64,000 nucleotides of DNA, from contig NZ_JANHAW010000002.1 of assembly GCF_024464595.1 (NCBI RefSeq), forward strand, positions 992,001-1,056,000, written 5' to 3'. The translations under genes and the position numbers were made by a program. Each line of letters opens with the position of its first letter. The stretch's first letter is position 1. Below are positions 30,606 to 31,168 of this stretch, in pieces. The notes under the pieces were generated by a model. That model did not search any database, had not been told where the DNA came from, and was given only the letters and a program-made list of their open reading frames with translations. This DNA is from Halobellus litoreus. GTDB lineage: Archaea > Halobacteriota > Halobacteria > Halobacteriales > Haloferacaceae.

Positions 30606-30779
30606 CTACGTCTCGTCCGGGAGTTCGTCGGCAACGAACGGCCGTTCCGAGGACGGCTCGAAGGGCGGAAGTTCCTCGTCGGCATCGAGCGCTTCGATCT
30701 CCTCCTCGTAGAGTTCTTCCTGGAGCTGGCTGCGCTTGTTCCGTCCCTTCCGCTCCCGGCCGTTTTTCGTGTCAGGCAT
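30606..30779 (-). CDS. Small conserved haloarchaeal protein (57 residues)
   Basis: Begins MPDTKNGRERKGRNKRSQLQ. The basic N-terminal third is followed by an acidic helix (EELYEEEIEALDADEELPPF) and a Pro/Glu-rich tail. The charge segregation suggests a nucleic-acid or ribosome-associated small protein, but no family is known to me. The start is the ATG whose first base is 30779; the nine codons upstream look non-coding. It stands between the thermosome gene and the tRNA-Ser locus. Confidence 0.72.
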   Translation of the reverse strand: MPDTKNGRERKGRNKRSQLQEELYEEEIEALDADEELPPFEPSSERPFVADELPDET

Positions 30780-31087
30780 TGTCATCCGTGTTGAGGTGTG
30801 CCACACGCATTAACTTTGTGTTGGCCACATTCACAACGGGATCCACTATTTCATACTATGTGACAGGTCCGCAGGTGACGGCAGCACGTGATCGACTCGC
30901 GTCCGCTCGACGACACGTCTCGCGGGGGAGTCGATTCGAGAAAGCGCCAGGACAGGGATTTGAACCCGATGGCGAGACTCGCTTCGCTCGTCTCGCGTGG
31001 TTCAAATCCTCTCGATGACGGCAGCACGTGATCGACTCGCGTTCGCTCGACGACGACACGTCTCGCGAGGGAGTCGATTCGGGAAAG
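30780..31087. other. 308-bp gene-free region filled by a tRNA-derived duplication
   Basis: The right half contains a copy of the 3' end and downstream flank of the adjacent tRNA-Ser, plus a nested palindrome (listed separately). The left part, about 30780-30875, carries the AT-richer upstream region of the small gene at 30779. No coding frame is supported. Confidence 0.7.
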
Positions 31088-31110
31088 CGCCAGGACAGGG
31101 ATTTGAACCC
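30876..31110. repeat. Direct duplication of the tRNA-Ser 3' end and its flank
   Basis: 30876-30967 (92 bp) and 31016-31110 (95 bp) are near-identical, with three substitutions and one 3-bp indel. The right copy spans the last 23 nt of tRNA-Ser (discriminator, acceptor 3' strand and part of the T-arm) plus 72 bp of downstream DNA. The left copy therefore holds a tRNA 3' fragment with no functional tRNA. Partial tRNA 3'-end repeats are the usual footprint of site-specific integration, but no element lies between them. Confidence 0.9.
30956..31009. repeat. Nested 54-bp palindrome with tRNA T-arm arms
   Basis: Outer arms ggatttgaacc (30956-30966) and ggttcaaatcc (30999-31009) are perfect 11-bp inverted repeats and equal the tRNA T-arm sequence. 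Inner arms gcgagac (30972-30978) and gtctcgc (30990-30996) form a 7-bp hairpin around tcgcttcgctc. The left outer arm belongs to the duplicated tRNA 3' fragment. Confidence 0.85.
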
Positions 31111-31168
31111 TGGATCCCAGAGGGAACACGCTTTCCAGGCGTGCGCCTTACCACTCGGCCATCCTGGC
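31088..31168 (-). tRNA. tRNA-Ser (anticodon GGA)
   Basis: An 81-nt cloverleaf. The acceptor GCCAGGA pairs with TCCTGGC and the discriminator is G. The D-arm begins GCCGAGTGG. The anticodon stem CACGC/GCGTG has loop CTGGAAA with anticodon GGA (reads UCC and UCU). A long class II variable arm and the T-arm AGGGTTCAAATCCCT complete it. No intron, and CCA is not encoded. A TTAAACTA TATA-like box (complement of about 31191-31198) lies about 27 bp upstream and overlaps the stop codon of the preceding small gene. Confidence 0.96.

Follow-up and report, generated by a model that had tools for sequence, protein, structure and literature searches.

A partial tRNA-Ser(GGA) copy in Halobellus litoreus is apparently one of a family of gene-less hairpin units behind haloarchaeal tRNA genes

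Partial copies of tRNA genes are routinely taken as the marks of integrated elements. In the 64,000 nt stretch of Halobellus litoreus DNA analysed here (the window), the gene for tRNA-Ser(GGA) is accompanied by such a partial copy, which was described in an earlier note as a duplication of 92–95 bp with three substitutions, one 3 bp indel, less than 50 bp between the copies and no element in the gap. Two readings had been offered: the scar of an excised element, or a minimal palindromic insertion that had duplicated its target. The locus therefore raises the question of what the second copy is, and whether comparable structures stand behind other tRNA genes.

The repeat was borne out by our analysis: positions 30876–30967 pair with 31016–31110 through two repeats, D1 (60 nt, 97%) and D2 (39 nt, 97%), with three substitutions and a 3 bp indel that follows from a spacing of 140 in one repeat versus 143 in the other. 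All parts lie on the minus strand. The tRNA-Ser(GGA) gene itself (31087–31168) is intact and functional (ARAGORN; Rfam tRNA, 63.2 bits), and tRNA is the sole Rfam match in the window. Its T-loop/T-stem and 3′ acceptor strand (31087–31110, approximately nt 52–73) form the source segment, which is repeated downstream from T-loop to discriminator base (30944–30967) with an 11 nt tail identical to that of the tRNA, the tRNA part common to both copies being 24 nt. Identity continues for about 70 bp beyond the 3′ end of the tRNA. A proximal flank copy (31016–31086), with the hairpin GAATCGACTC..GCGAGTCGATC, lies between the tRNA end and the gap, and a distal flank copy (30876–30943) equals it apart from the three substitutions and the indel. 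The gap (30968–31015) measures 48 bp and holds no gene, but it is not featureless. Together with adjoining T-loop bases it forms a 54 bp palindrome with arms GGATTTGAACC and GGTTCAAATCC (30956–31009), overlooked at first reading and recovered by pattern search as GGATTTGAACC ACGCGAGACGAGCGAAGCGAGTCTCGCCATC GGGTTCAAATCC. On the tRNA strand, GGATTTGAACC is followed by the inner hairpin GCGAGACGAGCGAAGCGAGTCTCGC (30972–30996; GCGAGAC-loop-GTCTCGC by sequence and fold), then by GGGTTCAAATCC and finally by the copied tRNA tail CTGTCCTGGCGC. Since TTCAAATCC is the usual haloarchaeal T-loop and T-stem end, the arms of the palindrome are T-arm sequence. The repeat is not an assembly artefact, as a separately assembled relative (G009) shares both the two-copy arrangement and the palindrome with the window and another (G011) has a decayed form.

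We searched for T-loop palindromes with the pattern GGATTTGAA-N12..42-TTCAAATCC, using the reversed pattern as a control. The H. litoreus genome contains four (control, 0), located behind tRNA-Leu(TAA), tRNA-Leu(CAA), tRNA-Asp and tRNA-Ser(GGA). Further copies of the 92 bp unit, for which the earlier note had proposed a search, were not found in this genome; the palindrome units behind the other three tRNAs are what recurs. Among 60 relatives, 36 carry between one and seven sites each, and the control gave none in any of them. The 73 rows obtained in this way include one duplicate; 69 of them (about 68 of 72 distinct sites) are located no more than 300 nt behind a tRNA gene and on its strand, and nearly all of these then carry the 3′ tail of their own tRNA. 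Two of the four exceptions are explained by integrated elements of 8 kb (G028) and 1.3 kb (G054) between the tRNA and the unit; a third (G018) is an orphan array adjoining a tRNA-Lys fragment, and for the fourth (L184) the nearest tRNA under the automatic rule lies on the other side.

The same tie to tRNA genes was observed independently in a named genome set (84,980 genomes), which yielded 93 strict sites of one core family, family A, all of them in Halobacteria, haloarchaeal bins or unplaced euryarchaeal bins. Behind a tRNA and with its tail copied are 86 of the 93; six of the remaining seven lie within 170 bp of the start of the locus, where the retrieved sequence stops short of the tRNA, and a single site (L292) has no tRNA within 6.8 kb. 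When 148 genomes were drawn across the phylum, matches occurred in 19 of the 24 from the order and in 0 of the 124 outside it, a count to be read with the fixed T-loop pattern in mind, which may miss archaea with another T-loop consensus; Halocatena halophila (‘Actinarchaeum’) belongs to the class Halobacteria and is not an outgroup here. A search of 2.9 million viral contigs for T-loop palindromes returned unrelated matches only. Four high-GC bacterial prophage contigs (L073, L078, L098 and L101) carry near-perfect palindromes, GGATTTGAACCGTGGACCTCTGG..CCAGAGGTCCACGGTTCAAATCC, shorter in L073, which are flanked by cat/atg and have no tRNA. The half-copy in the window is apparently one of a large and undescribed haloarchaeal family of tiny non-coding hairpin cassettes behind tRNA genes. 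Its novelty is judged within the searchable literature, for the most part that outside subscription journals, in which no description of a tRNA-trailer hairpin family was found.

The anatomy of the unit is recurrent. Read in the direction of the tRNA, an intact gene is followed directly after nt 73 by a spacer of 30–95 nt, usually hairpin-forming; next comes a palindrome that repeats the T-stem and bears an inserted core where the T-loop would otherwise start (GGATTTGAA-core-TTCAAATCC), and then an exact copy of the 3′ end of the same tRNA, comprising the 3′ strand of the T-stem, the acceptor strand and the discriminator base. Palindromes measure about 38–70 nt and whole units roughly 75–170 nt, and none contains a gene. 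Of 92 units, 66 have a tail copy free of mismatches; decay is seen in many tails. Identity between tRNA and copy mostly ends 0–4 nt after nt 73, so that the flank is uncopied in most units; the window, in which the flank is duplicated too, is atypical in this respect and shares the feature with a minority of units that includes those of G015 and G030.

The 5′ boundary is equally defined. Identity of the right arm with the tRNA starts at the GG of nt 52–53, and the triplet before GGATTTGAA both tracks nt 49–51 of the unit's own tRNA and pairs with nt 63–65, each at no more than 1 in 1000 permutations, whereas the signal is gone at nt 48. Neither a pure copy of nt 49–51 nor pure pairing with nt 63–65 could be cleanly assigned, both being significant; in the unit of the window, the triplet pairs poorly with nt 63–65. 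From the 5′ boundary and the triplet signals, we read the palindrome as the 5 bp T-stem reproduced, with the core placed where the T-loop starts. Among 36 family-A units of a single length, 95.7% of the stem cells are paired, and 42 were changed on both sides compared with 15.6 after shuffling (0 of 500 shuffles). The inner stem and the triplet of the T-stem account for this covariation, since the conserved outer bases are fixed by the search pattern. The invariant G–G mismatch and A/GA internal loop of family A likewise occupy positions that the search pattern fixes.

Units also occur in arrays, and their cores are shared among different tRNA genes. Four copies stand about 87 bp apart behind tRNA-Leu(CAA) in G030, and two or three tandem units are found in several Halobellus species. 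At the tRNA-Leu(CAA) and tRNA-Leu(TAA) loci of 17 congeners, some species have no unit and others have one to three. The suggestion that the tRNA-Ser(GGA) gene is a recombination hotspot holds in a general sense, as the regions downstream of Ser(GGA), Leu(CAA) and Leu(TAA) all vary by species within the genus. Family A has the core CAGGGA..GACCGTG and family B CCCTGCCAG..CTGGCTTCG; both families, together with the spacer hairpins, are common to the Leu(CAA) and Leu(TAA) loci despite the differing tails. The core in the window (family C) is 91–95% identical to cores behind tRNA-Lys(TTT) in another genus and behind tRNA-Gly(CCC) and tRNA-Ala(CGC) in another taxonomic family, each of which carries its own tail or a decayed one. 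The core of the window thus recurs at unlinked, non-homologous sites, as is expected of a non-autonomous mobile repeat.

The direction of change can be read clearly at one locus only. In G006, the sequence right after tRNA-Ser(GGA) is foreign when compared with the flank of the unit-less G002 (z 1.3), whereas the flank past the distal copy is ancestral, as in G002 (z 18.6); as the ancestral flank is distal and the foreign one proximal, new DNA entered between the tRNA gene and the sequence that once followed it. The window shows a match to the single flank of G002 on either side of its palindrome (z 21 for the proximal flank and 14 for the other), and hence the flank was copied in tandem when the unit arrived or later. 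Recombination between the repeats could remove the unit and restore the state seen in G002.

Of the two readings originally offered, a minimal palindromic insertion that duplicated its target fits best. Given the anatomy of the units, their tie to the tRNA 3′ end, their boundaries and stem pairing, the arrays, the recurrence of cores and the presence or absence of units among congeners, we assign a probability of about 0.5 to the reading that the feature belongs to a haloarchaeal class of gene-less tRNA-trailer cassettes which would spread as small non-autonomous repeats, mobility here being read from sequence comparison. Insertion of a unit would take place at the T-arm/3′ end of the tRNA gene, which would keep its own end whole while another came to lie downstream; TTCAAATCC and the tail, regenerated in this way, would then offer a fresh target, from which arrays could grow, and units might be lost again through recombination between repeats. 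In the window, roughly 70 bp of ancestral flank would have been copied in tandem along with the unit, through duplication or conversion; simple insertion does not account for this extra copy.

The small mobile repeats of Haloquadratum are the nearest described class (PMC3119063). SMR-A and SMR-B of Haloquadratum walsbyi are non-coding, 80–110 bp long and rich in prominent inverted repeats, with a means of mobilization that is not known; they target PATEs and IS605-type elements, as well as the palindromes of other elements, without target duplication (PMC3119063). The present units are likewise haloarchaeal, small, gene-less and provided with inverted repeats, and they too show a strong target preference. 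In contrast to SMRs, they sit behind tRNA genes with a copied tRNA 3′ end, so that the target is duplicated. SMR insertions are strain-specific; for our units, presence and absence were seen between congeneric species only.

Two candidate carriers were set aside because they are not consistently present in unit-rich genomes. Cas1 was searched for and is absent from the H. litoreus genome and from several other unit-rich genomes. The Y1 transposase was found in none of the unit-rich G006, G009, G021 and G028, and the H. litoreus genome has one interrupted copy. The Halobellus genomes richest in Y1 (10–17 matches; G001, G008, G010, G012 and G016) have no T-loop palindromes, and the regions downstream of their tRNA-Leu genes are plain.

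The chief competing reading gives the unit a role as RNA, since at least eight species of Halorubrum retain one and the same unit behind tRNA-Leu(CAA), with paired changes. The unit would be part of the primary transcript of the tRNA and either assist pre-tRNA folding or 3′ processing (tRNase Z) or serve as a stable trailer. The 5 bp T-stem, the locked T-loop and the second acceptor 3′ strand would be under selection for RNA structure, and spread would occur by recombination between tRNA paralogues. The paired stem changes, the exact T-stem boundaries, the fixed strand relative to the tRNA, the Halorubrum trailer and the family-A mismatch and loop, albeit pattern-fixed, are all in keeping with such a role. 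Nevertheless, units accompany only a handful of the tRNA genes in a genome, the pattern finds none in many haloarchaea and many tails are decaying, which argues that the unit is not a required tRNA feature. We regard an RNA role as possible but doubtful; the Halorubrum unit suggests a function for the host or as RNA and not selfishness alone. Trailer repeats have a bacterial precedent: the tyrT gene of E. coli carries tandem 3′ repeats that give RtT RNA (Rfam RF00391). The likeness is one of layout only, as this is a single bacterial locus with another sequence, and we know of no T-loop palindrome family there. A search with RF00391 gave no match in the H. litoreus genome, and E. coli alone was positive among 14 controls.

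A more far-reaching reading, which we consider unlikely, is that Halobacteria possess a dedicated tRNA-targeting system. A specific recombinase would insert imperfect-hairpin units and regenerate its target (T-loop plus tail), giving rise to arrays of the integron or CRISPR type while the tRNA is never inactivated. Integron attC sites do resemble the units in forming arrays beside one fixed site, in their imperfect palindromes with a conserved mismatch and in their variable inner stem-loop. The units differ in being gene-less and in lacking the GTTRRRY/RYYYAAC core sites: the arm GTTCAAA is not GTTRRRY, and the arms read GTTCAAATCC / GGATTTGAAC.

Local mutation is improbable as the sole origin. 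Under this reading, the tRNA 3′ end would have been duplicated in place when template switching or slippage occurred at the hairpin of the T-arm, leaving quasi-palindromes without any mobile unit. The window itself lends it some weight, with its own flank duplicated at 97% and both flanks resembling the single flank of G002, as do the duplicated flanks of G015 and G030. However, the cores cannot be derived from the local tRNA, nearly identical cores stand behind different tRNAs in different families and the flank is not duplicated in most units.

The other original reading, in which the copies are the attL and attR of an integrative element excised from tRNA-Ser, or a minimal remnant of it, has been largely refuted, and we consider it very improbable. 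Haloarchaeal elements do use tRNA 3′ ends as att sites (reviewed in PMC8371274), and integrated elements stand at tRNA-Gly in relatives. Like the SSV, pNOB8 and SNJ2 types of plasmid and provirus, the units involve duplicated tRNA 3′ ends, but those elements are large and integrase-bearing, with att identity set by a shared core (PMC8371274). Neither integrase nor cargo lies between tRNA and partial copy in the window or in the units of relatives, and identity in the window runs well past the tRNA instead of being confined to an att core. A compact unit like that of the window recurs behind many tRNAs in many genera and is standard across the order. The palindrome arms were not found as the ends of large elements, and the right arm GACCGTGGTTCAAATCC matches only three viral contigs, all unrelated. 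The tandem arrays, the core families at several tRNAs and the integrase elements between tRNA and array all argue against a scar; the genuine elements of G028 and G054 have att copies of their own and sit between the tRNA and the unit, and true att copies in relatives comprise 45–53 nt of tRNA, separate from the units and proximal to them.

The 8 kb element of G028 (L334, 10638–18900), behind tRNA-Gly(TCC), encodes a large restriction-modification-like protein and a tyrosine integrase that is divided between two overlapping ORFs; its att copy, 45 nt long, immediately precedes an array of two hairpin units. In G002, an integrase-like ORF begins directly behind tRNA-Leu(CAA) (L354), and a 53 nt partial tRNA copy stands on a separate contig (C11:3802–3854).

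Least probable of all is insertion by a casposase or Cas1-like enzyme, with each unit regenerating its target and arrays growing in the manner of CRISPR. The idea is attractive because TTCAAATCC, at the unit end, contains TCAAATC, the T-loop motif that the casposase of Aciduliprofundum boonei recognizes upstream of the target it duplicates (PMC6614799), and because casposons (Methanosarcina mazei, A. boonei) also target and duplicate a tRNA 3′ end. Casposons, however, are kilobase elements that carry Cas1-solo, a polymerase and terminal inverted repeats, none of which is present in the much shorter units. Cas1 is missing from the H. litoreus genome and from several unit-rich genomes, and the casposon duplication comprises 14–15 bp from the extreme tRNA end and the flank rather than a T-arm/acceptor copy.

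As many haloarchaeal partial tRNA copies are a recurrent short hairpin unit, calls of islands or proviruses that are based on tRNA fragments need revision in this group. An order-wide family that is tied to tRNA genes and copies the end of its own host tRNA also offers a clean natural experiment, in which one can ask how a repeat devoid of genes locates essential genes and leaves them unharmed. It poses a concrete question about tRNA trailer RNA as well.

Three minor observations concern the surroundings and variants of the units. At the tRNA-Leu(CAA) loci of Halorubrum (L241 and others), a further hairpin, GGAAGACGCTCTCGGAGCGCTCTTCC, follows past the unit genus-wide and terminates in a shorter tail copy, CTCGCA. 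In G058 (contig C8; L342, 1–180), a tandem repeat of about 50 bp, GAACGAAGCGCAGCGAAGTGACCGAGTGCGAGGCGGAAGCCGAGCGCAGA, ends in the right arm of family A and is an expanded inner stem of the unit. Finally, a small ORF of about 56 amino acids in the window (30610–30779, minus strand; MPDTK.GRERKGRNKR.QLQEEL...) is found again in several Halobellus genomes, a few hundred bases past the trailer of tRNA-Ser(GGA).
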